This document shows positions 42,767 through 64,000 of a DNA stretch of 64,000 nt, one piece after another. The stretch lies in the NCBI GenBank assembly GCA_020055645.1, contig CM034549.1, forward strand, positions 25,069,930 through 25,133,929, given 5' to 3'. The position numbers and the translations under genes were made by a program. The first letter of the stretch is position 1. Each line of letters starts with the position of its first letter. This stretch comes from Tomocerus qinae. Taxonomy: Eukaryota > Arthropoda > Collembola > Entomobryomorpha > Tomoceridae. The notes beneath the pieces were generated by a model that saw nothing but the letters and a program-made list of their open reading frames with translations, did not search any database and was not told the origin of the DNA.

Positions 42767-44940
42767 GCTTTACTCTATTGTCCGCAAAGACAAGTGAGCC
42801 GAAAATTCCGTGGATGAAAGTTTTATTGAGTTTGGAATAAGTGATTGGTTTAAAATATGTTATCGCCTTTCTCGTTCGATGAAGTGTATTAGTTATCACC
42901 ATTAACTGCATTTTGATTTGGCACATTAAACATTCGAGATGCGTATTGAAATGAACTCTTTAGCCTGTCGCTCAGTAGTTGACACTTTTGATGATAATCA
43001 TGGAACGTTTTGTCAGTCTAATTTGTGTCACACTCTTGATCTACCACTTCATGCACTGAATTCATAACAGGATTCTCGTAATTATCGCAATTGTATCTTT
43101 CTGGGAAGTCGATGGAAAAAGGTACTCTGGCAAAATAGAACAGAAAAATAAACCAGATATTCGTTTTCGGTTCGAGTGGTTCCATTCTTCCATTATCTGC
43201 ATTTATTTACCTAGGTGGTAAGTTAGCCATTCCTGTAGACAACGTACAGGTGAGTTAAATAGTAAATGCTTCGTAGAAAACAACCACTCTTATAACCAGA
43301 GCAGTTTTATTTACCTACTCAGACAAATAATTGTGGCCTTCCATTTTATAATGCTGTAATCTGCTAAATAGTCCTATTTAGGACAAATCACATGCATAAT
43401 AGTCATAATAATATTATTATTTATCTCTAGCCTAGTATATGTAATATACGAGCAACAATATACATAGTCAGTTGCAAATAATTAAACCCTTGTTTGTACA
43501 ACAAATATGATGTTAACTTAACTTTGTTAGCCTTCGGCCCAACTATAGTTCAATTTCACTATTGTCTTTTAAACTGCTGAATGCTGAAGAAGACAAAATA
43601 TTATTATTTAATTAGATAATAAGCTTTTTTTAACACGGTAGAAGATTTTCGAATGCATTTGTCATATCAGTTTCCAGCGTATCATTTGCTTGTGTCATTG
43701 TGTATAGTATTATTCACATGTCCATCATTACCCCAATATTAACAATTATTTGTGATTACATAAATAATCCTTTAATACGCAGATTTGTGGTTAGACCGAT
43801 TGTTTATACAAGGCAGTTGTTTCCGTATCAATATAAAAACAGAAGTGGGTAAAGTTATACCGTACCGTACTAATTTGATAAGGGTACCCAAAGTACTATT
43901 ATTAATGATAAGCAGACTGAAACTTTGTTACTAATGTCCAAGTCTTCTGTCTTGTGTTTCAGAATATGAAATGACTATGAAATAGTAAATTAAACCGGAT
44001 AGTACTTTGCTATTTGAAGAGCAGTATGTCTATAGTCTATGAAGTCTATGACATGATAAGAGAGTAGAATAGCTAAAACTGAGCCGACATCTTTTGCATT
44101 ATTTGTCAGGTCAGGGGTCACCCACCTGTCGAATGTCGCAGTTCTTGCGCTCCTCCAGTTTACTGCCGAATCTTTAAAAGTTGCGATCAATGATGACGAG
44201 GGGTATTTTAAATTATGCGTAATCAAAAAAGACCATTGTGCTTGTAAATAGTTTACTACAGCAAGATAATTTTAACGAAAAATTTTTTGAAACACAGTGT
44301 ACAATACTCCATACTCGGTCGAGCTTCTGCTACGGCTTGCTAGGTTTTTATAGGCATTTTTTAGAGTCGACAGCAAGACAATGACAAAACGTGCGAGCTG
44401 GGAGCAAAATCTTTATGCTGTTGGGGCCATTGAACCTCTTGACGCAAAAATTCATATATTCCTGTCATGCATGTCATGACTGTTAATGGTAATCCATTAA
44501 CCATGTCTATAATAAAAATACTTGCCTTTTTTGGATCATTTAAAAAATTTTCTTATTACATTGTAAGTACATATTTCAAAATAACTTAAAATCAATTTTA
44601 ATTAAGTATTCAACAACCGCAGATTCAATGTTTTTGTCCATATACAGTATCATAGTAGTATCGGTAAATTAGCAATTGATTGGTGCATTCCTCGAGGCGA
44701 TACGAAAAATCTTATGTAGTTTCCCATCTTACATGGCTAGATAAAGCTTATTTCACCATTGACGTATTCGGTTGTAATATTTATCTGAGTTCATAAATTC
44801 GCCCAATACTATTTTAAACGAAGCATCAGGTTTTGGACAAATAAATAAATATCTCCTCGTTGTAATAATTATTCATATACACAAGACACAAAGTCCTGAC
44901 GAAAGAAGCGTCCAGACCGATTATCGGATCTCCGTTATCC

Positions 44941-45160
44941 GATTCTATCCGATTCTATCCAATTTTATCCGATTCTATCCGATTTTATCCAATTTTATCC
45001 GATTCTATCCGATTTTATCCGATTTTAACCAATTTTATCCGATTTTAACCAATTTTATCCGATTTTAACCAATTTTATCCGATTTTAACCAATTTTATCC
45101 GATTTTAACCAATTTTATCCGATTCTATCCGATTCTATCCGATTTTATCCGATTTTATAC
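44941..45160. repeat. 10-bp tandem array, 22 units
   Basis: Exactly 22 consecutive 10-base units, mostly GATTCTATCC, GATTTTATCC, AATTTTATCC and GATTTTAACC. In the middle, GATTTTAACC and AATTTTATCC alternate regularly, giving a 20-bp higher-order unit. All units end in CC on the plus strand, apart from the last (GATTTTATAC). The array ends about 80 bp left of the inverted-repeat element. Confidence 0.9.
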
Positions 45161-45240
45161 GATCGTGTCTTAGAGATCTGATTTTATCAGATTTTATTTG
45201 TATTTATCAGAAATATGCTGATATTAGGTTGTACTGTGAG

Positions 45241-45637
45241 CACACATGCTAGTTTCTGGCTCGGCCGAAATTTTTTTATAGACCTGGCTCGGCTCGGCTC
45301 GCTGAAATTTTTTTATAGACCTGGCTCGGCTCGCCCTATTGGATGATGTGGCTCGGCTCGCCCTTGCCTTGGCTCGGCTCGCTCAAAAATTTTCCCGCCA
45401 TTTTTATTTTAAACCTACAGGCTTCTTAACCATTAGTGGCTCGATTTTTCGGCGAGCCGAGCCGAGCCGAGCCATGGACCCGGCTCGGCTCGCCAAAATT
45501 TTTTTTAATTGCTGGCTCGGCTCGGCTCGGCTCGCCAAAAAGTTTTTTGAGGATCTGGCTCGGCTCGGCTCGGCTCGCTCAATGTTGTTGGAGGTCAGTG
45601 GCTCGGCTCGGCTCGCTGACCTAAACTAGCATGTGTG
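45241..45637. mobile_element. Non-autonomous hAT-type (MITE-like) element with GGCTC arrays
   Basis: 397 bp bounded by perfect 15-bp terminal inverted repeats (CACACATGCTAGTTT at the left, its complement at 45,623-45,637). It is flanked by an identical 8-bp direct repeat ACTGTGAG at 45,233-45,240 and 45,638-45,645. An 8-bp target duplication with CA...TG ends is the hallmark of hAT-superfamily insertions. The inside is built of GGCTCGGCTCG runs alternating with A/T-rich spacers; most run in one direction and one block near 45,450-45,475 is inverted, so the element can fold back. It has no transposase. The Ala/Arg/Leu-rich open frames here are translations of the repeat. Confidence 0.8.
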
Positions 45638-48903: not shown

Positions 48904-51435
48904 TCAATTATGAGGAGCTCTATTTCCTTCTGTGTAATTGATCCATCTTTCCGCTGTGGCAGAGAAAATAGGGTCTTCGTCAATCGTTGCAAAGGTGAGT
49001 AATTGGTTGATATGTGTGACATGGTAGTCAAGACGAGCCAAGTTTGGAGAAATACCAGGCACAGTGAAATGTCTCAAATCATACATTGTCCCACTTCCAG
49101 TGTCATACAGAGGAAGCATTGTTTTCAAAGACTTGAGCCCTTCGTCATACAACGTGGCAGCTTTTTCAGAAGCTCCAGAAACTCCAATTTTCATAACATC
49201 GTAAAGTCCAAGAAGTGCATACATGAAACCGTTGAGAACAAAAGTACTGGGTGTAGTAGGATACTCTTCATACCAAATGAATTTATCCATAAATACAGCT
49301 CTGACTCCATTTTGGCTTCCAGGCAAATCGAATATCTTCTTCACAGCTTTGGCACAAGCATTTGCGTAGTCGTACCGAGATTTTCTTAGAAAAAATGCTC
49401 TGGAAAGCAAAGACAGAGCGTGGCCCTGACCCATGGCTGAATACCAGCCTGATTCAAGCACAGGGTAAAATTCTGGAGCAAATTTTCTCTTCACTGGAAT
49501 TGGCCATCCTCCATTTGTATCTTGAGAGTTTGCAAACCAATCTGCAGCTTGGAAAAATTGCTCTAAATGTTCATTCGTTGATAGAGTTAAATTATCCAAA
49601 AGTATCTGTCTGTCATGACACTCTAGTGAGAGAGACTCGAAAATTAGTTTTGACTTGGAGATTTTTATGTTTTTTGCAGCTGATTTGCGTGGACTGTTTA
49701 TATTCGAAGGTGACATTGAAATGCCTTTTTGTACATCAACTCCAAGGTCACGGATTATATGTTGCCAAGAAGAAAGACTTCTTAAACCAAGGCCATGATA
49801 TATGTGATTATCCTGAAACAAGCATGATAGACAATTGTTAGATGGTAATTCTCTTAAGAACTATGGAAAGAAATAGGCAATTTTAGAATCTTACTTTCAC
49901 TTTGATGAAAAAATTGTCTGTCACATAATGAAGAAAATAACGTTGACTTTCGTAGCGAAGAGTTGCGGTTATTGTAACGTTCGCAAGTTGAGTGGACAGT
50001 AAGGAGTTCTCAGTCTTCATGTCCCAGCTCATTACCAACATTCTCGGCTTTGACTGTGGTAATTTGCATTCTACTGGTTGTCCACCTTTTAAATTAAATC
50101 AGGCAATATATTACCACAAATTGACAATGGCCATTTGAGAAGAAAATTCCCAGTATTCCCCAAACCGTAATTTTACCTGGAGACGAATTTTGTATTTGTA
50201 TAACATTATTGTTGGAATCTGTTGGATTAGGAATCACAGTTAGCTCGGAACCTTTCTGTACAATCCATTCCCCCCGAACATCTTCACCATTTTCTATTAT
50301 CGTTCTCTCAGGTTCTCCTTCCGCTAAATACTTGCTGTAATGTGACAGTCCAAATTGGGCAATTTGAATTGGATAAAAATATCCGTTAACATCCCATTGT
50401 GTCGATACAGGTACTCCTACACACCAAAATCTTTGTGAATTATGACCGAAGAAATTTTACGTCATTACATAAGTTTTATGTTTTTGTCTCACCTTCTGCA
50501 CCACTCACACACTTTACTCTGTCTCTCACTTCTACATTGTAGTTTTCAAAGTAGGTGAACGCTCCTGTAGGTTTGTAAACTTTTGGTCGGTATATTTTCA
50601 CCTGACTATGTAGCCAAATGAACTTTGTTTCGTCATTTTCAGCCATTTTCCCGAATATCTATTTGTAAAAATATAGTACTCTGATTAGATAGGGTAATAT
50701 AAATAAACAATCTTTTATAATAAAATTCAAAACATTATCTTGCCTCAAAATATTTATGTATGAAGCTAAAAGGAATGTAAACTTCGCTGTTTTCTTTTTT
50801 ACAGTCCAAGACAAACTTGCCATGATTAACATCACACGTTATATCTGTTATGGAATTTTTATCTTTTGTATTAGTGGCTTTAATGACGCTGTTTGCCTGG
50901 TTGTCCTTATTAGTATTAGGTTTCTTTTTCGCACTGGCAATTTTATTAACACTTGTGTAATCATCGGTTTCATCGACTTCTTCCTTCACAGCCTTATTAC
51001 TGTTTATTTCATTATTTGAAAAGTCATCATCAAAAGGATAATCTCCAGGCTGTTCCAATTTTGAGCTTTTCTTCGGCTTTTTCCAGCTACTATGTTCACT
51101 CTTCTTGTCTCTGTTGTTTGTTTCTTCATCTTCGTTGACAGACTGATAATAATTTGGCAACGCAGCTACAGCTGCATCTTCATTCTTAGAAAATAAAACA
51201 CATTTCACAATATGCTGGAACACAATTTTATCTTATGCACTAAGAATTAAAGCAAGTTAAATTGTCTCACCTTAGAATCATAACCTAAGGATCTTAAATT
51301 CGAATTTTTATTTCCGGGCAAAGGTGATGTTTGGCATCTTGAAATGAGAACTATCGTTAACCCCACCACAACCACAATTAAGAAAAAAAGACACGTTTTC
51401 AGACTGAACATACGCCCCATGGCTAATTTTGTCAT
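48904..51435 (-). CDS. Glce: D-glucuronyl C5-epimerase (heparan sulfate)
   Basis: Golgi type II membrane enzyme that converts D-glucuronate to L-iduronate within N-sulfated heparan sulfate chains. Six exons: 51271-51435, 50744-51184, 50493-50658, 50177-50416, 49895-50085, 48904-49812; 2,112 nt, 703 residues, in phase. A signal anchor lies at about residues 12-32 (CLFFLIVVVVGLTIVLIS). Exon 2 encodes an acidic/lysine-rich stem of about 100 residues, longer than in typical relatives (human about 617 residues in total), then EVYIPFSFIHKYFE. The C-terminal catalytic part is well conserved: DTNGGWPIPVKRKF, GWYSAMGQGHALS, WYEEYPTTPSTFVLNGFMYA, LPLYDTGSGTMYDLRHF, LDYHVTHINQLL, ending in APHN. The intron after exon 2 starts with GC (GAG|GCAAGA), a GC-AG intron. 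The gene lies head-to-head with PNPO. Confidence 0.95.
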
Positions 51436-54204
51436 AGGCCCGCAAACTGAAAAGTGATTTTCTTAACTATTATTTTAGAAATTCAAAAGCGACATATTTT
51501 TCACAGTCAACAATTCCAGTGGTCGTGATACTTTCTGCATGATTACTAGGTTATGCACTACAAATCTTCATTTCATCTTCATCGACATCAAGGAGTGTTT
51601 ATTATTCCGTCAGCTGAAGTTGAAGAGCAGACTTAACTAATTATTCTGCTGTCTCCTGCAACATAAATATCATAGAACCATATCATTTAGTGCTGCATAC
51701 ACTATGAAAATTCTCGTTTGAAGTGAATATAATATAAATGATACTAAAATTAATTTAACCATGTAAATATTAAAACAATGTAAATGAATTAAGTAAAGAA
51801 AAAAGAAGAAATTCTGTCTAAGCATTCAAAGATGAGAATACTGTACATTAACATTAGACAGAGTTCAATTAGATATTATGTATTTGAGTGTAAGTGTAGG
51901 AAGAGATATATATTTTTACACATGTACTACTTCAGGTACAACATAACGATAAAAACATTATTAAAGGCTTTAAATTTTTATATCAATCGATAATAAAAGA
52001 GTAATTTTCTAGGGAATACCTTTCTCTAAACAAGTTATAAGACTTATTTGAGGACAGGCTGAAGTAACACAGTGCATGTTAAATCAGCTAACTTAACTAC
52101 AATGCACGTGCAAAGAAATGAGTATAATAAATAACAATTACTTATGTAGATAGGTGCTTACTTATTGGTGATCTTATGTACAACTGTCCTTTCAAACTTG
52201 TCTTGTTTCCTATAATATATCTTGTCTTGTCGGACAAGACGACTTGCCGTTTATATAGACAGAAATAAAACTATATTTACGCGTACATTTGTGAGCACAT
52301 ACCTATTTAATACTTATGTATTAACATGTTCCAGAAATTTTCAGTCCAGTTCCGAAACACTTTCAAATGTCAGTTTTACATTTTTGAATATAATTTAAAA
52401 GTACTTAAAATCCTAACTTATCCTGCTCGTTTTCTACTTCCTTTGTACTTATATAGGCACAACGAACGGTATATTTGTAAGTATATAAAATATAACTCCA
52501 CTACATATGCGCAAATGTCTTAGCTTATATTTACTATTTTGTACAAGACATAGATGTACTTCTTATACGTAGAATATGTATGTAGTGGTCTTTTGGTCTT
52601 GTATTCTTATGTACTCTCTGCTCTATCTACTATGTCTACACTCTAATACGGCTGAATCTTTACTTTACAAATGTTCTCCCTTGTCTATATGTAAAACCCA
52701 GCGAGGTATATTTTCTATTTCATACACACACAAGAGTTCTGTCTGTCCTACCAGCCCTTATACCTACAGCTGTCAGCAGACAAATCAGATAAGATGGAAT
52801 ATTACATTTTTACTGTACATACATAAACAGATCTGCTAAGAGTATCATTTTAGCGCAAAGTGTTTGATTCAATTGCTCCGGTACATGAGTCTTCACGTGA
52901 TACATTTTTTCTGCAGAATCGTTACATAGACTTTATTTGTGTACCTGGACATGAATATACATTTAGGGTTATCAGGACTTGTCTTCTTTCATGGTATATA
53001 GTAACTAACCAAAAAGCTATTAAATATTTTATGAGATTAATGGGCCACAGGTCACTCGAGATAAAATTCAGTATTTGCATTTGGTTAAATCAAAAACTTC
53101 ATCTTCTAAACCTAATCCTAGAGTGTGGTAGACTATCTGCCAATGTTATCAGTTTTTCCCCATGAATATAACTTAATACTTAAATGGGCTGGGACTGGGA
53201 GACTACACAAAATAATTGCTGATCTGGTTTTTGACAATAATTATTCGATTTTTAAATTTTAGTTAACATAGATTTATAGCTTATTGTCCTTTTAGTTTCA
53301 ATATTATTATTATTACTAAATAATATAGTTATGCCCCTTCCTGCAGAGTGCAGATAAATAATATTTAGATTTCTAACACAATTTTAAATACACTACACTG
53401 TATCTCTCTTTCTACTTCAACTTCAATGTGTGTGACGTTTGGTAATTACCAAAGTTTTATAGCAAAAACAAAAAAACTTTATGTCGAGGTATTATTTTTT
53501 CCAGGAAAGCATATTAGAAAATGTAATCATTTGCAGATTGCTTGTAGTGATTTATTACTCTGTTACTATATACTACACTCATAATATAATCCATAATATA
53601 CCAGGGCTAACGCAGCCAAGCAAGAAAAGAAAAAAGGATTTCTATATAAAACATTGGGATTTTGGAAGTCTAAATGAATTATTGAAGTTTCTAGATATCA
53701 CAACTGCCAACCACATACACACCGAAACATAGTGGTACATTACACAACATCCACAACCCATTACGAGTCTGAATTTTCAATTATGCATTTATATTAATTT
53801 GGCTCTACACAGCAAAATGTGTATTTATGTACTACTATGTTTCGTGTACATAATGATAATGCAGGTTACATAAAAATTTACGTGGATAGCAAAACAGTAG
53901 TGTCAAAGTATCAATAGCATCATAAGTTTATAGACATTTTTTGGGTTTTGGGTTACTCTTTTTTAATGTGGAAAACTGTAACCAAATCACTATACCTACA
54001 CGCAAAAGGGCTTAACATTTGTGATAGTAGAATATCTCAAAGTTTAAGTAATCCAGCACTCCACTGTCAAAATCTCAACCTAATTTTCTGTAAAAATATG
54101 GCAATCGATATTGGAGGTTGGTTTTAACACTATCAGCACTTAATTTTCAATTTTATACTATTTTGGTTAATAATTATATGTTTATTACATGTGGTCATCA
54201 ATAG
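51436..54204. other. Bidirectional upstream region between Glce and PNPO
   Basis: About 2.8 kb containing the 5' ends of two divergent genes. The N-terminal exon(s) of PNPO should lie here but I could not identify them. A plus-strand frame ending at 53,732 has a protein-like tail (DFGSLNELLKFLDITTANHI) of unknown meaning. A small palindrome TCTTGTC-G-GACAAGA occurs at about 52,221-52,235 among CTTGTC repeats, possibly a regulatory site. Confidence 0.4.
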
Positions 54205-54307
54205 GCATGAGAAAACCTTACATGGACAAACATTCGGCATTTACTGAAGACATGCTAGTGTCCAAGGAACCCTTTCAACAATTCAAACAGTGGTTCGAGT
54301 TGGCTGT
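54205..54307 (+). CDS. PNPO: Pyridoxine-5'-phosphate oxidase, 5' fragment before the insertion
   Basis: PNPO oxidises pyridoxine/pyridoxamine 5'-phosphate to pyridoxal 5'-phosphate with FMN, the last step of vitamin B6 salvage. After an acceptor (CATCAATAG) this exon part encodes MRKPYMDKHSAFTEDM and then EPFQQFKQWFELAV, the standard N-terminal block of the family. It stops abruptly at 54,307, where the LTR retrotransposon begins. Removing the element and one copy of the 4-bp duplication makes the frame run on into the fragment at 62,926 with no gap. The ATG at 54,207 is in frame and could be the start, but an upstream exon with a targeting or N-terminal sequence is likely. Confidence 0.9.
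54304..54307. repeat. Target-site duplication CTGT, left copy
   Basis: CTGT immediately left of the 5' LTR is repeated at 62,922-62,925 immediately right of the 3' LTR. A 4-bp duplication fits Ty3/gypsy integrases, and restoring a single copy restores the PNPO reading frame exactly. Confidence 0.9.
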
Positions 54308-54720
54308 TGTAACACGGGCTACCTGCAATTCACCAAACTCACTTCCCTTACACCACCCAGACCCCCAACCCACTACGAAGGACTTCAGTGTGCCACAACT
54401 CTCTATCGTCAGTTGCGCCGCAGCTCGTGGACTGATTTCATCTCTCATTTGTATTTGTATACTTAATATCATTTCCTTTCTCATTCCGTAAAGTAATTCA
54501 TTATTCAGTTGTAATCGTAATTTCTCATGTGTTACTAAATTCAATTCTCATTCAATTAACCCAACGTGTATTGATTCTTGATTGCATACAGAGTTTATTA
54601 TTTATTTCAGTCTAATTCGGTAAACGCATAAGTCATAAGATATCATCGTGGAACCTTGTATCACCCATATAGGTAGTCGTTACTATCATACTGGGCATAA
54701 ATAGAGGCTTAGCCTTTACA
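54308..54720 (+). repeat. 5' LTR
   Basis: 413 bp, starting TGTAAC and ending TTTACA (short inverted ends TGTAA...TTACA). I found no difference from the 3' copy on reading both through. A TATA-like GCATAAATAG near the right end may position the start of the R region. Confidence 0.95.
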
Positions 54721-54723
54721 ACT

Positions 54724-54743
54724 TGGTGCTACGAAACCCGAGC
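54724..54743 (+). other. Primer-binding site candidate
   Basis: TGGTGCTACGAAACCCGAGC begins three bases after the LTR. TGG at this point is expected for pairing with the CCA end of a host tRNA that primes minus-strand synthesis. I could not decide which tRNA. Confidence 0.65.
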
Positions 54744-54759
54744 TTCGAGCTTTTACAAC

Positions 54760-54768
54760 GTGGTAAGA
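54760..54768 (+). promoter_or_regulatory. Leader splice donor candidate
   Basis: CGTG|GTAAGA with the cut after 54,762, 20 nt beyond the primer-binding site. This is where retroviruses and errantiviruses keep the major donor used for env. It pairs logically with the acceptor before ORF3 at 60,906. Confidence 0.5.
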
Positions 54769-55312
54769 ATTATTGCGTAATCCGTGTGGTAATAAAAATC
54801 TAATCCGGGATACTACTTGGTGCATATCGAGTGGGGTAATTGAGGATTAGTAAGCAATTAACACTAACTTTGGAAGTTACCAGAGTCGTGAAGTTGCAAT
54901 TGTTCCATCCTGTCCTGACTTGTGGAAAAAGCGGGAGGAAGCGTTGATATCTTATGCGGGGCAATATGAGTATTTTTATTTCATCTTATTAACAACTTTT
55001 AATTTGAATTAGTAACATATTTTTTTTCAATCAACATTTTATTGAGAATAATCATTGATGTTTTATTACTTTAGAGAGAAAAAGGTAACTAAAGACACTA
55101 AAGCTTATGTGATAGTATTGCTGTGTCTTCAGAGGTCCGAAACTAAACTTTAAATTCTACTCTGGAAGTTTTTGGTTAACAATCCTGCAGTAAGGTACGT
55201 AATTTTTTTCGGTATCTCCAGTGTGATATCAGGAGTCGAAAATAAATAGCTTCTAGACGATAAGGTTTTAACCCTAATTTGTAAGAATATTGGTCAATGT
55301 TTCTTTGTTTAA

Positions 55313-55606
55313 ATGAAGGAAGTAGTCATTCAATTAAATCTCCAGCATACAGTAGCTAACGTTCAGATTTTGGAAAAGCAATTAATTGTTGATTTAATTA
55401 AGCAAAGTGCAGTCAATTTGCCAATTGAGGTCGAACAAATTGATAAAAGTTTAACAGTAAGAATAAGTCACTTAGTAACTACTTTTCAGTGTACAACGAT
55501 AATTGACAATATTAGATCAAGGTTAAACCGGGAATTAAAAACGTCTTTTATTAACTTTTCAATTATTCATATTGACAATCGTCTACCTTCCGAATTGGGA
55601 TTTTAA
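55313..55606 (+). CDS. Retrotransposon leader ORF, 97 residues, unknown
   Basis: Open from ATG 55,313 to TAA, upstream of gag and in the same frame. Composition is protein-like (Ile/Leu/Gln-rich, MKEVVIQLNLQHTVANVQIL) and a helical or coiled structure is plausible. No family recognised. Standard gypsy elements have no gene here; it could be an upstream regulatory ORF, or part of an ancestral longer gag now cut by stops. Confidence 0.35.
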   Translation: MKEVVIQLNLQHTVANVQILEKQLIVDLIKQSAVNLPIEVEQIDKSLTVRISHLVTTFQCTTIIDNIRSRLNRELKTSFINFSIIHIDNRLPSELGF

Positions 55607-55618
55607 TAGATACAGTAA

Positions 55619-55750
55619 ATGTCTAATAGGCGACAAAGGTATCTTAGAAGACAGGACCCAGAGTATATACAGGAACAAGAAAGGTTGATAGAGTTAAATA
55701 GAAGGAGAAGACGTAGAAACGGAGATAGAAATTCAGATCCAGGAGTTTAA
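55619..55750 (+). CDS. Retrotransposon small Arg-rich ORF, 43 residues
   Basis: Starts 13 nt after the preceding stop and ends 30 nt before the gag ATG, same frame. It encodes MSNRRQRYLRRQDPEYIQEQ and then a run of six Arg before the stop. Arg-rich short proteins can bind RNA or direct nuclear import, but this is inference. It may equally be a leader peptide or the former start of gag. Confidence 0.35.
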   Translation: MSNRRQRYLRRQDPEYIQEQERLIELNRRRRRRNGDRNSDPGV

Positions 55751-55780
55751 GAGGGGCAACTCTTTCCATTGTTCTTTGAG

Positions 55781-57113
55781 ATGGAAGGGCATGGAAATAA
55801 TGTAGAAAATGTAAATAGACAAGATGCACATAGTGAAGACTCATTTGAGGATGCAGAAGTTCATCAAGAGGGCAATGATAGACATGAAGCAGCTAACAAC
55901 GTAGGTCAACGCAGAGGTAATCAGAGAGGTCAAAACCAACTTGATAGACATACACGGCACCATTTAAATATCATTCAGCAACAGCAAGCACAGATAGCTC
56001 AGCTAATTCAAATACTAAGACCAGAAAGGCGAAACCAGAGGCAAAATGTGAACCTAGAACCTATTAGGCATATTCCACATCCAGGAACCAATGCAAATAT
56101 TCCTATTCCCAAGCATAATTCCAACATGCAAACAGCAGCTAATTACCTTGTAGACGTAGAAGCATATTTTAGAAGTCAGCATTACCCTGAGGAATCTTGG
56201 CTCTATATGATGTCTACGATCATAGCAAAAGAAACTAAATCATGGTATGATTATGTTATACGACCAAACTGGACATGGGACGAGTTTAAGATAGCGTTCA
56301 TTGCAAAGTATGACACATGGCTAGAAAGGAATAGAAGAACTCAATATTTGATTACAAAAGTTCAAGGTGAAAAAGAGAACGTAGAAAAATTTGTATGGGA
56401 TATGGTCACATTAGCTAAGCAGGTCTTTCCAGATGAACCAGAAGCAGAAAGCGTAAGAAGGTGCAGAAGTGCTATGTTACCTAGAGTAAATTGCTATTGG
56501 AGAGTTAGCAGAATATACGGTAGAAAATCTATTGGCTAGAGCAAAGTTGGTCGTCGAGGATTTACGTGCTAGCGATGCAAATGAAGGCAAGCAAAGCGAC
56601 TTAGCAAAGTTACCGGGTGTACAGCTGAAGCAACAGGATAATGGTAAACCACAAGGTACATCCAATAGAGGAAGATATAGAGGTAGAGGTTACCAACGTG
56701 GTAGAGGCAATTTTAGAGGAGGATATGGCTATATGAATAACAACGCATATCACCAACAAAATCAACAAAATGGTAATGTAGAACCACAACCGGCATCATC
56801 TAGTAATAATGCTAATCAAGGTGCATACAATAACCAACCACATAGACAGAGAACGCCAGAAGAAAATAATTATCAACCAAGGCAAGATAACAGAGGTAAT
56901 GGTAGAGGACAAGGTCGTTCTAGAGGTCAAAGAGGTAGGCCGAATCCATCTACAGCACATGCAAATGATACATGTTATGCTTGTGGCAAAACGGGTCATA
57001 GATCATACAATTGCACCGAAACAGGTCAAGCTATGTCTTTACAAAATGAAAATGAATGGCAGGAGCAACATGATAACACAGAAACGGCAGAAAATCATTT
57101 AAACGGGCAGTAG
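55781..57113 (+). CDS. gag: Gag (capsid and CCHC nucleocapsid), with one frame break
   Basis: Structural polyprotein that packages the element RNA. The first part, from ATG 55,781, has an acidic/Gln-rich start, then the retrotransposon capsid fold signature (YLVDVEAYFRSQHYPEESW, WYDYVIRPNWTWDEFKIAF). The frame is lost by one base at a short A run near 56,488; it reopens at 56,490 with IGELAEYTVENLLARAKLV and continues through a Gly/Arg-rich RNA-binding stretch (RGRYRGRGYQRGRGNFRGG) to one zinc knuckle, CYACGKTGHRSYNC. It ends at TAG 57,111-57,113, overlapping the pol frame. The break is either a real mutation or an assembly indel. Confidence 0.9.
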
Positions 57114-59305
57114 GGGAAGTCAACTTTCCTGACTTTTGCCTTCCCCTCAAAAAACAAAAAGATATGGACAAATTGGCAACCAGCGTATCAATATTTTTTA
57201 ATGAAAAAGCTACTATAGCACCAGCATATTTAGATTCAGGTTCAGACTATTCTATAATTAGGAAATCATTTGCTCAAAAATGTGCGAAACGAATCGAATC
57301 ATGTAAACCAATGCCATTAAGATGTGCTAACAATCAGATAGTGCAACCAATAGGAAAAATAGCAGTAGAAATTTGTATTGGACATAAGAAACTCACTCAT
57401 GATTTTTATGTAATGGAGCAATGTGCAGTACCTATATTGATTGGGAGAGATATAATATATGCCACAGATATGATATTTCATTTACGTAACAACTCATTTT
57501 GGTTTGCCGATGACGATAAAAGGCGACAATATGCAATTGTAGGTAAGAAATCAGGCAAGTATTTGTTTGCTATAAATTATGAGGACATAAAGGTTAAGAC
57601 AGATCAGGATGTTGCAAAAATATTTGAAGAACTATTAGATAAGTATCTTAAGGTTTCGGGTCGTAACCGAATTCTGGGACGTACTAGTTTAATGAAGCAT
57701 TATATTGATGCACCAGACACACCGGTCTATACACCTTACAGATATCCAGGTAGAAAGATAGCAGAAGAAATACGCAGACAAACAAAAGAACTATTAAGAA
57801 GAAATTTAATCAGACCTTCACAATCACCGTATAATTCCAATGTAGTAATGGCACCCAAATCGAATGGAAAATTGCGTATGGCAGTAAGCTACAAGAAATT
57901 AAATAAAATTACTAGAAGTAACCGAACTCCAATGCATAACAGCCACCATATACTGAAAGTTCTACCTAAAGCGAAGTGGTATTCGAAGATTGACTGCGAA
58001 TCGGGTTTTTGGCAAACTCCTATGGACGAACGTAGTATAGAGAAAACAGCTTTTACCGTAGATGGTGAACACTACGAATTTTTGGTTATGCCTTTTGGAT
58101 TGAAGAATGCACCAAAGACTTTCGTGGAGTTGATGAATAAAGTTCTAGAAGGGTTGATTGGTAATTTCGTATTCGTTTTTGTTGATGACATAATTATTTT
58201 CTCTCAAGATTTAGATGATCATGTCAAACACGTAGAGACAGTCCTGAAGAGACTAGAAGATGCGAATATTTCCATCAACCGAGAGAAGAGCGAATTTGCG
58301 AAGCATTCTATCACCTTTTTGGGGCACATCATCAGTGAGGACGGTATCAGCATCGATCCGGAAAAGATAAGGGCTATCAAAGATTTTCCCTCACCTAAAA
58401 ACGTATCGGAACTGAGAAGATTTCTAGGTAAAGTCGGCTATTGTCAATCCTTTATTCCACATTACTCAGATGTTGCAGAACCACTTAATTCCTTATTAAG
58501 AAAATCTACTAGTTGGTATTGGGGTACATCTCAGCAGAAAGCATTTGAAAAACTGAAGAATTATATGTGTGAGGACGCTTTACTAAATTCTATCGATTAT
58601 GACTACCCAATTATCATAAAATGTGACGCATCGAACATTGGACTGGGAGCAGTACTCTTACAGATCATCGATGGCAAACATAAGATCATTCAATATGCAA
58701 GTAAGTCATTGAAGCGTTCAGAAAGGCATTTGGACTCTTGCGAAAGAGAGTTACTAGCTATACTTTGGGCGACGGAGAAATTTTATGACTACATATACGA
58801 TGAAGACTTTCACATCTTAACAGACAACAAGGCTTTAGCGCACCTACATCAAAACAAAGAAAATAATTCTAAACTCGGAAGATGGGCATTAAGACTACAA
58901 CCGTATTTAGAGAAGATTAAGCACATACCGGGCGCGAGCAATGAGATTGCAGATGCTTTGTCAAGAGCTCCAGTCGAACCTACAGGCAAAGAATCAGATT
59001 TCATGGAGGATCCAGATGTGATGTTCATTCCTTGTTTCGGTCTTATGTTCAGAGGACCTAAACTATCTCAGATTACAGAAGAGCAGAAATCAGATGATCA
59101 CTGCAAGAAAATTAGAGACGCAATTATGGGTAATTCGCTGGCCACGAAGTACTCAGACTATTGTATCAAGAATGACACACTGTATAAGAAGATAAGTTTA
59201 ATGGAACCAATTGAAGGGCAAGGGATGCATACCGAGTCAGTTCAATTGAAGGATGAGGAAGAAACAAATGGAAGTCAGAACAAAGATGTAAAAGAAAATG
59301 TGTAA
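57077..59305 (+). CDS. pol: Pol: protease, reverse transcriptase, RNase H
   Basis: Frame open from 57,077 and reached from gag by -1 slippage; the first ATG is 57,164. Aspartic protease active site YLDSGSDYS near 57,232, later ILIGRDI. Reverse transcriptase follows: LIRPSQSPYNSNVVMAPK, MPFGLKNAPKTF, and the catalytic FVDD box at about 58,181. RNase H: IIIKCDASNIGLGAVL with its Asp, CERELLAILWATEKF, LTDNKALAHL, and IPGASNEIADALSR at the end. It stops at TAA 59,303-59,305 after an acidic/lysine-rich linker, one frame short of the integrase. All main catalytic residues are present. Confidence 0.95.
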   Translation, partial: HRNGRKSFKRAVGEVNFPDFCLPLKKQKDMDKLATSVSIFFNEKATIAPAYLDSGSDYSIIRKSFAQKCAKRIESCKPMPLRCANNQIVQPIGKIAVEICIGHKKLTHDFYVMEQCAVPILIGRDIIYATDMIFHLRNNSFWFADDDKRRQYAIVGKKSGKYLFAINYEDIKVKTDQDVAKIFEELLDKYLKVSGRNRILGRTSLMKHYIDAPDTPVYTPYRYPGRKIAEEIRRQTKELLRRNLIRPSQSPYNSNVVMAPKSNGKLRMAVSYKKLNKITRSNRTPMHNSHHILKVLPKAKWYSKIDCESGFWQTPMDERSIEKTAFTVDGEHYEFLVMPFGLKNAPKTFVELMNKVLEGLIGNFVFVFVDDIIIFSQDLDDHVKHVETVLKRLEDANISINREKSEFAKHSITFLGHIISEDGISIDPEKIRAIKDFPSPKNVSELRRFLGKVGYCQSFIPHYSDVAEPLNSLLRKSTSWYWGTSQQKAFEKLKNYMCEDALLNSIDYDYPIIIKCDASNIGLGAVLLQIIDGKHKIIQYASKSLKRSERHLDSCERELLAILWATEKFYDYIYDEDFHILTDNKALAHLHQNKENNSKLGRWALRLQPYLEKIKHIPGASNEIADALSRAPVEPTGKESDFMEDPDVMFIPCFGLMFRGPKLSQITEEQKSDDHCKKIRDAIMGNSLATKYSDYCIKNDTLYKKISLMEPIEGQGMHTESVQLKDEEETNGSQNKDVKENV
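57098..57146 (+). promoter_or_regulatory. Programmed -1 frameshift signal at the gag-pol overlap
   Basis: Heptamer TTTAAAC (57,098-57,104) lies in the gag frame as CA[T TTA AAC], which is exactly the X XXY YYZ pattern UUUAAAC used by many RNA viruses. After an 8-nt spacer, GGGGAAG (57,113-57,119) pairs perfectly with CTTCCCC (57,140-57,146), with an inner GTCA/TGAC pair, giving a stem-loop. Slipping back one base moves from gag into the pol frame, which is open from 57,077. Confidence 0.8.
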
Positions 59306-60567
59306 ACAAATTACTACCGGTCATTCCCAAGAGTTTGAAAGAAGATGTCATGTTTGTGTTCCACGATGCACCGGAGGCGGGACACAGAGGTGTAAAGAAG
59401 ACATTGCAGATGTTAAGGTTAAGAGTATATTGGGAAGGTATGGAAAAAGACGTAAAAGGTTATATTAAATCTTGCGAGAGGTGTCAAAGAGTAAAGTCTG
59501 ATACACAGTTGAAAGCAGGTTTAATGGGTTACAGTGAGGTAGCTCCATACGTATTTCATACACTATATGTTGATTTTATGGGCCCTTTACCTACGAGTAA
59601 AGGAGGTAGGAATAATAAGTACATTTTGGTAGTTCAGGATCAATTATCAAAATGGGTAGAAATTATACCTATGAGAAATGCTACGGCAAATCAGGTAAAA
59701 TATTGGTTAGAATGGATATTTTGTCATTTTGGTTCACCAAAACTCTTAATTTCAGACAATGGTTCACAGTTCATTTCAAAAAGGTTGAAAGAATTATGTA
59801 AAGAATGGCAAATAGATCATAGGTTCACTAGTGTATATCACCCTCAACCTAATCAGTCAGAAAGAGTAAATAAAACTTTAAAGCAGATGATTAAATGCTA
59901 TATAGATGAGCAACAATCTTCATGGGATGAATACTTGCAACTTTTTGGTTTAGCTCTAAGGTCAGTTATACATGAAAGCACAAAGGTCAGTCCAGCACTT
60001 TTAAATCTAGGACGAGAGTTGGCATTACCATTTGATAGGTCGCTTATGGAATCTAAAGATATAGACTTCGCTAAAGCGAGGGAGGAAATTGAAAAATTAC
60101 CTACTAAATTGTTGGATATAGTAGAATATGTAAAGAATAATATTACGGAAGCACAAATAACCTATAAGGACAATTATGATAAACATCATAGACAAGTTTC
60201 TTATATTGTCGACCAAGAAGTATTAATACGTAATCATGTTCTTTCAGATGCTGAGTCCAATTTTTCTTCTAAATTAGCACCTACGTGGATAGGACCTTTT
60301 AAAATTAAGCGTCAGATTACTCCGGTAACCTACGAGTTATATTCAGGTATAACAAATAAAAATATAGGTAAAAGACATGTATCCGATATGAAGCCGTATA
60401 TTAGACGTCCGATTAATGAGCGATCTAGTATAGTCTTCAAGTCGCAATTACATTGTCCTAAATTAGGTAAGAAAGCGAGAGGCAAACTTGCATTGCGTTC
60501 TTTACCTATTGACAGACCAAGGCGAAAAACTTATATTCCGGGTCAATATACAAAGTTTCTTAAATAA
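59257..60567 (+). CDS. pol: Integrase
   Basis: Inserts the cDNA into host DNA. The frame is open from 59,257 (-1 relative to RT/RNase H); recognisable integrase sequence starts at about 59,299 with NKLLPVIPKSLKEDV. Zinc-binding HHCC domain: HDAPEAGH then CERC. Catalytic core DDE: Asp in LYVDFMGPL (about 59,572), Asp in LISDNGSQF (about 59,755) and Glu in NQSERVNKT (about 59,860). C-terminal GPF-type module TWIGPFKIKR, then KRHVSDMKPY and a basic tail. No clear slippery heptamer was found at the RNase H junction, so the break is probably an indel. Catalytic residues are intact. Confidence 0.93.
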   Translation, partial: GRNKWKSEQRCKRKCVNKLLPVIPKSLKEDVMFVFHDAPEAGHRGVKKTLQMLRLRVYWEGMEKDVKGYIKSCERCQRVKSDTQLKAGLMGYSEVAPYVFHTLYVDFMGPLPTSKGGRNNKYILVVQDQLSKWVEIIPMRNATANQVKYWLEWIFCHFGSPKLLISDNGSQFISKRLKELCKEWQIDHRFTSVYHPQPNQSERVNKTLKQMIKCYIDEQQSSWDEYLQLFGLALRSVIHESTKVSPALLNLGRELALPFDRSLMESKDIDFAKAREEIEKLPTKLLDIVEYVKNNITEAQITYKDNYDKHHRQVSYIVDQEVLIRNHVLSDAESNFSSKLAPTWIGPFKIKRQITPVTYELYSGITNKNIGKRHVSDMKPYIRRPINERSSIVFKSQLHCPKLGKKARGKLALRSLPIDRPRRKTYIPGQYTKFLK

Positions 60568-60668
60568 TTATTCACTATTATAGGTTAAGGTAACAGTTAA
60601 AACATAGTTAAGATTTCATTCAGTATAAAAGTATAATTAAGCTAACAATATACACATTATGAGATTAG

Positions 60669-60890
60669 GAAAATATTACAAGTTTTTGTGGAGACCATCA
60701 AACGAATGTGGAGACCATCATAAAAACAGTTAAAAATTACTAAGTCAGTAGAAGGTATTATAAGTTTTTGTGGAGACCATCAAACGAATGTGGAGACCAT
60801 CATCCAAACAGTTGAAAATTACTAAGTCAATAGAAAATATTATAAGTTTTTGTGGAGACCATCATAAATATGTGGAGACCATGCTTAATT
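60669..60890 (+). repeat. 82-bp tandem repeat, about 2.7 copies, in the element
   Basis: Copies begin at 60,669, 60,751 and 60,833. Each contains two GTGGAGACCAT motifs, six in all, set in A/T-rich spacer. It fills the gap between the integrase stop and ORF3. It is not coding in a convincing way; it might serve in RNA packaging, transport or splicing control. Confidence 0.85.
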
Positions 60891-60906
60891 CTTTTATCTA
60901 TTCCAG
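60887..60906 (+). promoter_or_regulatory. Splice acceptor immediately before the ORF3 start codon
   Basis: A pyrimidine-rich tract (TTCTTTTATCTATTCCAG) is followed directly by the ATG of ORF3 at 60,907. It allows ORF3 to be expressed from a spliced subgenomic RNA, as env is in retroviruses. Confidence 0.65.
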
Positions 60907-62513
60907 ATGTACAAAAACAGCAGCAGACATAAGGCCACGAGTCATCACGTCAACCGAAACCAGAAGGTCTCACGAATGCCATCGAATGCACGAACTAGGC
61001 AACATGAGTTAATGTTGTCAAATTCAAAGCAGGAGGCACGGAAAACAAAAGACTACAGGGCAAAATGTCAAGAGGCAAATCAAAAATTTGGAATCTCGAA
61101 GTATCGCTCCGTTAGTGGCTGTCCCATGTCAAGACAACATCGACTGAGACTCAACCACCAACAGGTCTACCACCATCTCACGAATCCCAACAAGACAATA
61201 ATCCAAATGTGGGCGCCAACTATCGAATCTCTACAGCTTGTCGAGGAGGAGAAACATACAACCAGCTGGATTGCGAATGTTGCAGATGCTATGACGATGC
61301 TCCTTCATCTGAAAAGGGTTAACCTCTTTGCAATTGATGTCGAAGAAAATCGAAGACACTCGTTTCTCGGAATGATCACTCTCATGCAAATATCTACAAC
61401 AGGAACTACGTACATAATCGACACACTGGCGTTCGGGATGTCAACCTTCATCCGTCAACAAATGAAAACCGTTCTGGAGAACCCAGACATAGTAAAGATC
61501 AACCACGGATCAGCAAATGACATACTCCACCTACAAAGAGACTACGACATATTCATCACGGGCGTAATTGACTTGCAATTTGTCTATCAACATTTCACTG
61601 GCAGCACAGAATTAGTAAGCTTTGACAACTTAGTTAAATGGGCACTTCCACAAACCTAACCTTGGACAAGACTCCGCAATTGTCGGATTGGACAAACAGA
61701 CCACTACATCACCAACAACTCGAGTATGCTGTAAACGACACTCAACTACTTATTGAGGTTTGGCGAGCAATCTTACCGAAGTTTAATGAAGAATATCGTA
61801 AAATACTACCGCTTTGGGACACCTTCATTCCATTAGACAAGTCGATCAACAATACAATCAAGTGTTATACCTACCCCAAATTGAAGTCAGCACAACAAAC
61901 CGCAGACATGTGTAAGGAGTTGAACATAGAACAAAAACAAATATTTATAGATCTATTTCATTGGAGAAGAGATACTGCAAAATTATTAGATGAATCCGAA
62001 GTCGACATAGTGCGCATAAATACTCTCATGAGAATGGCTAAGGACAAACCTAATCAGCAGCAGTTACGCAATCAAAGGTATTATAAAATTGATCCAAATA
62101 TCATACCATTCCTTACAAAGACTCAAGAAATTTTCAGACCACCAAAGGAGGAACACACTGTCGAGTATTATGAGATGGAAGCTTCACAGGATATGGAAGA
62201 GATTGACATCGACATTCTACAACTTCATATTCCCATGAATGAATTCGCGGACACACCATTTTGTGACAAGATTTGCAGTAGATGCCAACAAGCGGGTCAC
62301 GAGAGAAGATTTTGTACTAACGACAAAAATTATGCAGCCATCAAAGCATATACCAGTCAGTTCCCCAATGTACGCGAAAACAGAATCCGAAAAAGGCGAG
62401 AAAGGAGAATAAGAGCTAAAGCAGTAGCAACATTGAAGAAAAGTCTGGAATCTTTTGCAAATCAAACTACAACAACCAGAAGCGTACACACCAACCAGCG
62501 AGGGAGGATGTAA
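60907..62513 (+). CDS. ORF3: Rrp6/EXOSC10-like 3'-5' exoribonuclease, split by one frame break
   Basis: Not a usual gypsy gene. First half (60,907-61,659): poorly conserved basic N-terminus, then TTSWIANVADAM..., exo I motif FAIDVEENRRHSFLG (catalytic Asp 61,336 and Glu 61,342), LMQISTTGTTYIIDTL, exo II NHGSANDILHLQRD. Second half (61,638-62,513, -1 frame): TLDKTPQLSDWTNRPL, exo III YAVNDTQLLIEVW with the Tyr-x3-Asp of the DEDDy class, an HRDC-like block LNIEQKQIFIDLFHWRRDTA followed by LLDESEVDIV, then a zinc knuckle CSRCQQAGHERRFC and a basic tail. DEDDy plus HRDC is the architecture of the nuclear exosome nuclease Rrp6/EXOSC10 (RNase D group). All four acidic catalytic residues and the Tyr are kept. 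The stop codon is made from the first bases of the 3' LTR. Confidence 0.88.
62500..62508 (+). other. Polypurine tract
   Basis: GAGGGAGGA directly abuts the 3' LTR and serves as the plus-strand primer in LTR elements. It is also the coding sequence for the last residues of ORF3. Confidence 0.75.
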
Positions 62514-62921
62514 CACGGGCTACCTGCAATTCACCAAACTCACTTCCCTTACACCACCCAGACCCCCAACCCACTACGAAGGACTTCAGTGTGCCACAAC
62601 TCTCTATCGTCAGTTGCGCCGCAGCTCGTGGACTGATTTCATCTCTCATTTGTATTTGTATACTTAATATCATTTCCTTTCTCATTCCGTAAAGTAATTC
62701 ATTATTCAGTTGTAATCGTAATTTCTCATGTGTTACTAAATTCAATTCTCATTCAATTAACCCAACGTGTATTGATTCTTGATTGCATACAGAGTTTATT
62801 ATTTATTTCAGTCTAATTCGGTAAACGCATAAGTCATAAGATATCATCGTGGAACCTTGTATCACCCATATAGGTAGTCGTTACTATCATACTGGGCATA
62901 AATAGAGGCTTAGCCTTTACA
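62509..62921 (+). repeat. 3' LTR
   Basis: 413 bp, same length as and apparently the same sequence as the 5' LTR, from TGTAAC to TTTACA. It is followed at 62,922-62,925 by the right copy of the CTGT target duplication. Confidence 0.95.
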
Positions 62922-62925
62922 CTGT

Positions 62926-63894
62926 AAAGACTGATGGAATCGAGGAAGCAAATGCCATGTCATTAGCGACCGCGACAAAGTATTATTTAAAGCCAGCCAT
63001 AAAGTTATAACGTTTTCGATAAAAAATAGGACACGAAGTTAATTCATTTTTTTAAAACGCCCACAGAGAAGGTAAACCTTCAGTCAGGATGGTACTTCTA
63101 AAAGGTTACGGAGAGGATGGATTTAAATTTTTTACTAACTATGATAGCCGCAAGGGACGAGAATTGGTACACATCATTCAAAATATCTGTGAAGCATTCA
63201 AATACACTTCTGATTTAAATTAAGTCTAGAGTCTAGTCTAGATGTATTAATAAATAAATTATTAATTAAAAGTAACCTGACTAACTTTTTCCAGAATCAA
63301 AACCCCTATGCTGCATTAAACTTTTATTGGGAGCCCCTGAAGAGATGTGTAAGTATTTTTGACAATTCTTGCTTAAACAATATTACATAATATAGTTTCT
63401 TATTTAAACAGCCTTATGATAGCTTTTTGATAAATCGTTCATAGGTTCGTGTGGAAGGTCACGTTAAGAAATTAAGTGAAAAAGAATCCATGGAATATTT
63501 TGAATCTAGACCATTGGGAAGTCAAATAGGTGCTGCAGTCAGCCCTCAAAGTCAACCAATTTCAAATAGGGATGTTTTACTTGAAAGAGAAAAAGAACTG
63601 ATCGCAATTGGAAACACAGCAAAAATTCGCAAGCCAGAAAAATGGTACTAATAAATAAATATAGTTCATTTTAATTTGCAAACACTTTTCGATGAAATGG
63701 AATGTAAAACGTCAACTCATTTGAACAGGGGAGGTTACATTGTTGTGCCTGACACTGTTGAGTTTTGGCAAGGTCAAACAAATCGTATACATGATCGAAT
63801 ACGCTTTCGAAGACTGAAAACCGGAGAAAAAATTGATGACAAAATCTCCCATAGGGGAGTTAACGGTTGGGCTTATGAAAGACTAGCTCCTTAA
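62926..63894 (+). CDS. PNPO: Pyridoxine-5'-phosphate oxidase, 3' part after the insertion
   Basis: Remainder of PNPO. Exon parts: 62926-62979 (continuation of the broken exon), 63067-63166, 63295-63348, 63445-63644, 63729-63894; all phases agree, and the last codons encode YERLAP and TAA. Family signatures: [38 protein letters not shown] with SRKGREL (FMN and substrate phosphate binding), [47 protein letters not shown] and [10 protein letters not shown]. Residues are typical of active enzymes, so the gene was under selection until very recently. In this sequence it is cut from its N-terminal exon by the retrotransposon. Confidence 0.95.
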
Positions 63895-63956
63895 TGTGGA
63901 CAATTAAACTGTGATTTAATTGGCATTTGACACTTGTCTTTCCTTTCTGTGTTAGT

Positions 63957-63978
63957 ATGGTTAAATTACCAACTGAGG
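63957..63978 (+). other. Possible small exon of a further plus-strand gene
   Basis: A pyrimidine tract ending TTAG is followed by TATGGTTAAATTACCAACTG and, after AGG, a strong GTGAGT donor. It could be a first coding exon (MVKLPTE) or an internal microexon of a gene lying beyond the window, or chance. Confidence 0.25.
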
Positions 63979-64000
63979 GTGAGTAGTCTATAGGTGGTAA

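Follow-up and report, generated by a model that had tools for sequence, protein, structure and literature searches.

Based on all analyses, it was concluded that the window (the whole analysed stretch of 64,000 nucleotides from the collembolan Tomocerus qinae) harbors a member of an arthropod gypsy clade, in which an Rrp6/RNase D-like 3'-5' exonuclease is encoded as a third gene and probably acts as an auxiliary factor in replication. This gene, ORF3, encodes the DEDDy residues, apparently followed by an HRDC-like segment and, in most lineages, by a CCHC knuckle. ORF3 is a part of the element; it was found in nearly all of the close relatives examined, descended largely with the integrase and evolves under purifying selection, its active site being retained.

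Structure of the element

A complete-looking Ty3/gypsy LTR retrotransposon occupies positions 54308-62921 of the window. The LTRs (54308-54720 and 62509-62921, plus strand) are 413 bp each, 100% identical and bounded by TG...CA, and the element is flanked by the target site duplication CTGT (54304-54307 and 62922-62925). A putative primer binding site, starting with TGG 3 bases past the LTR (54724-54741, plus strand), and a putative polypurine tract GAGGGAGGA, located directly 5' of the 3' LTR (62500-62508, plus strand), were read from the letters. A 97-aa ORF (55313-55606) lies in the leader, downstream of the 5' LTR and upstream of gag. The gag gene (55751-57113, plus strand) consists of two overlapping frames in the window copy (55751-56539 and 56490-57113), the second of which carries a CCHC zinc knuckle (Pfam zf-CCHC, E 1.4e-5); the Retrotrans_gag match (E 0.032) was below the cut-off. 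The first pol frame (57077-59305, plus strand) encodes protease, reverse transcriptase (RVT_1, E 3e-36) and RNase H (RT_RNaseH, E 2.5e-31), the protease matches (Asp_protease_2, E 1.1e-4) being below the Pfam cut-off. The second pol frame (59257-60567, plus strand) encodes the integrase, recognized by Integrase_H2C2 (E 2.2e-20) and rve (E 4.7e-16), and a WIGPF (GPY/F) motif was read in the translation at its C-terminus. The domain order PR-RT-RNase H-IN, with the protease below the cut-off, and the GPY/F motif are those of Ty3/gypsy, as are the TG...CA LTRs with a short target site duplication. No Rfam match was obtained at the gathering threshold in the whole window.

The integrase and ORF3 are separated by 340 bases, which include 82-bp tandem repeats (2.6 copies, 60669-60882, plus strand). 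ORF3 is represented in the window by a first piece of 250 aa (60907-61659, plus strand) and a second piece of 291 aa in another frame (61638-62513, plus strand), with the break near 61640-61660. Its frame crosses the purine tract GAGGGAGGA, and the stop codon lies just inside the start of the 3' LTR. The window copy is therefore young but not intact, since the LTRs are identical, yet gag, pol and ORF3 are each broken into two frames.

The element interrupts a gene for pyridoxamine 5'-phosphate oxidase (PNPO) within a coding exon, and the sequences on either side of the element (54189-54307 and 62922-64000) read in frame across the empty insertion site. Later PNPO exons matched PF01243 (E 1.3e-6) and PF10590 (E 3.2e-18). 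A second PF10590 match was located in the genome at C1:45401088-45401249, and thus the host may rely on another copy of PNPO. The window also contains an exon of heparan sulfate D-glucuronyl C5-epimerase (48904-49821, minus strand; PDB match 5.8e-87) and tandem repeats at 44935-45615, where 23 copies of the 10-bp unit TTATCCGATT are followed by units rich in GGCTCGGCC/CGGCTCGGCT.

ORF3 protein

The exonuclease domain PF01612 (DNA_pol_A_exo1) was recognized in both pieces of the window ORF3 over the curated cut-off, with E 3.3e-15 for profile positions 6-125 in the first (~61276-61638) and E 8.1e-8 for positions 129-171 in the second (~61653-61781). Hence, the predicted third gene stood as to its domain, but in the window copy it is spread over two frames and not one. 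Other genomic copies (L002-L006 and L008) have ORF3 as a single open frame of 541-598 aa, stop to stop. In the intact copy L003 the profile was matched over positions 6-171 (E 7.4e-24), and the E values for three intact copies ranged from 7.4e-24 to 9.9e-30. A short patch of changed residues lies between the first two motifs of L003 and is absent from the window copy.

When the L003 protein was compared with PDB sequences, the top match was human EXOSC10 (E 1e-18, residues 96-386, comprising the exonuclease and HRDC region). EXOSC10 and yeast Rrp6 ranked best, followed by WRN (E 3.8e-8), RNase D and mut-7. The original prediction of an Rrp6/EXOSC10-like DEDDy exonuclease encoded downstream of the integrase of a gypsy element was borne out by this match and by PF01612 in both pieces. 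The predicted motifs were also present, as the five DEDDy residues (D-x-E, D and Y-x3-D) were kept in all 13 intact representatives, which include the window family (12 of the 20 retrieved loci described below, and L003). A protein database search with the L003 ORF3 returned only three prokaryotic RNase D-like proteins, the database apparently being without eukaryotes. In trees the ORF3 proteins grouped with Rrp6/RNase D, apart from mut-7 homologues. An exonuclease-domain tree with EXOSC10, WRN, mut-7 and bacterial proteins left both the monophyly of the transposon proteins and their nearest cellular relative undecided, and a single origin of the exonuclease lineages was not proved, as the deep relations are undecided in the tree.

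The HRDC-like segment that had been predicted was recovered in the window ORF3 as a weak match (~61932-62057, E 0.014) below the cut-off (15.7 bits versus 23.8 needed). Among the ORF3s scanned, the cut-off was exceeded in L041 alone (28.4 bits), most others gave weak matches (E 6.1e-5 to 0.057), and L047 gave none. The CCHC knuckle of the same prediction was located at 62274-62315. Its C-x2-C-x4-H-x4-C motif was shared by 9 of the 13 intact representatives, among them the window family, and was missing in L041, L046, L047 and L048. The N-terminal PMC2NT domain was not listed in the Pfam scans of the ORF3s (reporting E up to 1 or 0.05), and no env family was found in any ORF3 scanned with Pfam.

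Distribution in the genome and association with the integrase

The 334 Mb genome (115 contigs) was searched with the second ORF3 piece as the query, resulting in 49 matches. Twenty of these loci were retrieved with flanking sequence, and an integrase of the same type was found upstream on the same strand in 19 of them, the exception being L037. Three copies of the window family are clustered within 25 kb in the same orientation (C1:51213775-51238061).

The association was further assayed from the integrase side. With the window integrase as the query, 909 candidates were obtained, of which the best 102 were scored, so that relatives of lower identity were seen in part; three integrases were split in two by their coordinates and hence counted twice. 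A same-strand PF01612 match no more than 6 kb downstream was recorded for 50 of the 52 integrases with at least 44% identity and for 1 of the 50 with lower identity among these best 102 of 909. The single case below the break had 43% identity and belonged to the L045 locus. In the control, which looked upstream instead, PF01612 was present for 2 of the 102 integrase matches. One distance between integrase and PF01612 was 5.9 kb, and the others, including the single case below 44%, did not exceed 2.2 kb. Of the two integrases with at least 44% identity but no PF01612 downstream, C3:100565 is adjoined by a match to the ORF3 C-terminus (C3:100055-100354); the other is C1:25088803. Within the best 102 of 909, a break at ~44% identity therefore marks the ORF3-bearing clade off from gypsy relatives without ORF3. 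The repetition of the element, the absence of which would have counted against the original prediction, was confirmed by the 49 matches, the 19 of 20 loci and the 50 of 52 integrases, and ORF3 stands well beyond anything expected by chance. The 49 genomic matches, the low dN/dS (see below) and the integrase association ruled out a fragment captured in a single copy.

Genome-wide, PF01612 gave 106 matches, all over the cut-off, and 56 of them had no neighbouring integrase from the best 102 of 909. Some of the latter are cellular genes, two of them mut-7-like (L049 and L050). Four matches of equal score and length (a 181-aa open frame) without a listed integrase nearby, at C1:31817901, C1:114091334, C3:10898901 and C4:3403105, perhaps represent another dispersed element with an exonuclease; one of them was retrieved as L056.

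Chitin_bind_4 (PF00379), a family which we take to mark arthropods, gave 114 matches in the genome, and a bdelloid host for the element was ruled out by them. Insects carry many Osiris genes; DUF1676/Osiris (PF07898) gave one weak match in this genome (33.6 bits), which speaks against a winged insect as the host, provided that this rule holds. Telomere repeats gave no clear signal at the contig ends.

Co-descent and selection

The pairwise distances of integrase and ORF3 were correlated (r 0.83, Mantel p 1e-4) over 18 rows, that is, 17 of the 20 retrieved loci and the window family. L037 was left out for having no integrase, and L042 and L043 for having short ORF3 pieces only; the window row combined the L003 ORF3 protein with the window's own integrase. 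The loci included the near duplicates L038/L040 and L046/L048. Almost identical groups were recovered in the integrase and ORF3 trees; the placement of L041 and of some deep forks was weak.

The dN/dS comparison among copies, also proposed at the outset, gave values below 0.5 (0.076-0.481) in 21 of the 23 measurable ORF3 pairs. The two exceptions, 1.30 for L002-L003 and 0.63 for L038-L040, both had a dS of ~0.01 or less and few changes. No value was obtained for 4 of the 14 between-locus ORF3 pairs and for two window-piece pairs, which were saturated or identical. For the diverged pair L029-L030 the dN/dS was 0.078 in ORF3 versus 0.046 in the integrase, and for L036-L045 it was 0.129 versus 0.058. 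Hence, ORF3 changes faster than the integrase but is constrained.

Expression signals

The ORF3 ATG of the window family is located directly 3' of TATTCCAG, a good-looking candidate 3' splice site that is pyrimidine-rich and ends with CAG (60889-60906, plus strand). YAG was found directly before the ORF3 ATG in 3 of the 11 representatives, compared with 2.7% of 5973 control ATGs; the three YAG-bearing lineages are related to one another. The combined test of splice-site scores gave a p of 0.03, and the same scoring of representatives detected no acceptor signal in the F and H lineages. A spliced ORF3 message is weakly suggested by these signals and is regarded as a lead rather than a result.

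Proposed role of ORF3

It was proposed that ORF3 is translated separately, possibly from a spliced subgenomic RNA like the one used for env in errantiviruses. The knuckle of the protein, together with its HRDC-like part and its basic tail, would bind the RNA of the element. Acting as an exonuclease, the protein would trim or remove the 3' ends of nucleic acids in the ribonucleoprotein of the element, the candidate substrates being the 3' end of the genomic RNA, the primer and aberrant RNA. Such trimming may represent an auxiliary step of replication.

It is conceivable, though doubtful, that ORF3 instead serves in counter-defence, degrading or occupying silencing or nuclear surveillance RNAs (piRNA precursors, siRNA or exosome substrates) and letting the element escape. 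The Rrp6-like architecture with the CCHC knuckle, the purifying selection and the near-constant presence in the clade are consistent with such a role, and the silencing-related DEDD proteins mut-7, EXD1 and Maelstrom are mentioned in the discussion of PMC5408684. The faster change of ORF3 relative to the integrase would fit an arms race, but laxer constraint can equally produce it, and the placement of the ORF3 proteins with Rrp6/RNase D, apart from mut-7 homologues, speaks against this role. The more specific proposal, that a long-lived arthropod gypsy clade is defined by an Rrp6-type exoribonuclease of its own, which is produced from an env-like spliced mRNA and directed against host RNA surveillance or small-RNA silencing, is unlikely. 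If counter-defence were true, a retrotransposon would have turned an exosome-type nuclease into a weapon against its host. A role in DNA processing, with ORF3 trimming single-stranded 3' ends of the cDNA or of the integration intermediate, is likewise rather improbable: DEDDy enzymes are described as acting on RNA or single-stranded DNA (PMC5408684), and the DEDDy domain of Dada DNA transposons was proposed to process cleaved 3' ends (PMC3706591), but the sequence is nearer to the RNA-acting EXOSC10/Rrp6 (1e-18) than to WRN (3.8e-8).

The position of ORF3 is that of env, possibly with an env-like splice acceptor, and a role for enzymatic ORF3s in this sense is called formally possible in PMC5408684. 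Nevertheless, a converted env-like protein, enzymatic by origin but active in the entry or exit of particles, is very improbable, as no env family was found in the scanned ORF3s by Pfam and the catalytic residues are kept. There is hardly any chance that ORF3 is a captured host gene fragment or a functionless passenger of one copy; the broken frame of the window ORF3 would suit it, but many copies in several lineages have intact frames and a kept active site, and 21 of the 23 pairs that could be measured have a dN/dS below 0.5. An auxiliary nuclease of replication is the preferred role.

Comparison with known systems

Extra ORFs in LTR elements are mostly env-like or without known function. 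Errantiviruses are gypsy elements with env, a third ORF downstream of the integrase, perhaps expressed from a spliced RNA. The present element resembles them in the position and possible splicing of its third ORF, but theirs encodes an env glycoprotein, whereas here a nuclease without any env family is encoded. Among cellular proteins the closest likeness is to the nuclear exosome exonuclease EXOSC10/Rrp6 (best PDB match, E 1e-18), in which a DEDDy exonuclease is followed by an HRDC-like region and the active site D-x-E, D, Y-x3-D is that of all 13 ORF3 representatives. In contrast to EXOSC10/Rrp6, the ORF3s lack PMC2NT in the Pfam scans, 9 of 13 have an added CCHC knuckle, and the gene is located inside a retrotransposon.

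The original prediction held that no established family carries an exosome-type nuclease. This was contradicted by PMC5408684 (2017), which describes DEDDy-type ORF3s from bdelloid rotifers, both in the LTR elements Juno and Vesta and in Athena elements; DnaQ-like exonuclease is listed among the well-known accessory domains of LTR elements in PMC6338049. According to PMC5408684, the rotifer ORF3s were acquired at least twice, have the motif altered to DEED, are seemingly swapped and do not deviate significantly from neutral evolution; a part in processing the 3' ends of retrotransposon RNAs was suggested for them, with the activity undemonstrated. As in the present element, the DEDDy exonuclease ORF3 of Juno1/Juno2 and Vesta2/Vesta5 is located downstream of the integrase, a Zn-binding Cys-His-Cys motif occurs in the DEDDy ORFs of Vesta2 and Vesta5, and the LTRs have TG...CA ends (159-551 bp compared with 413 bp). 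However, the rotifer elements, known here by description only, have a dUTPase between PR and RT, which was absent from five Tomocerus qinae pols (not found by Pfam in the window pol at E up to 1, nor in the pols of four relatives at E up to 0.05). They also have DEED instead of DEDD plus Y, swap ORF3 among elements after at least two acquisitions, whereas the clade described here has a near-constant ORF3, and reside in bdelloid and not arthropod hosts.

DEDDy exonuclease ORFs are also described for the Athena Penelope-like elements/Terminons of bdelloids, which belong to another retroelement class and reach 40 kb with many ORFs (excerpts of PMC5408684 and PMC6431247). Dada elements share the DEDDy exonuclease domain and, in some proteins, a CCHC end, but they are DDE DNA transposons with the exonuclease domain within the transposase, as described in part of PMC3706591.

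Searches of freely available papers, outside subscription papers, preprints and Repbase, listed no report of an arthropod gypsy clade with an exonuclease ORF3. The clade supplies many natural sequences for testing the substrates of ORF3. Exonuclease ORF3s in LTR elements are already known from rotifers, and the arthropod clade with a selected ORF3 is a variant of them. Because ORF3 is missing from hardly any member of this clade, follows the pol phylogeny and evolves under purifying selection, the clade shows that retrotransposons can adopt an exonuclease of this type as a lasting component.
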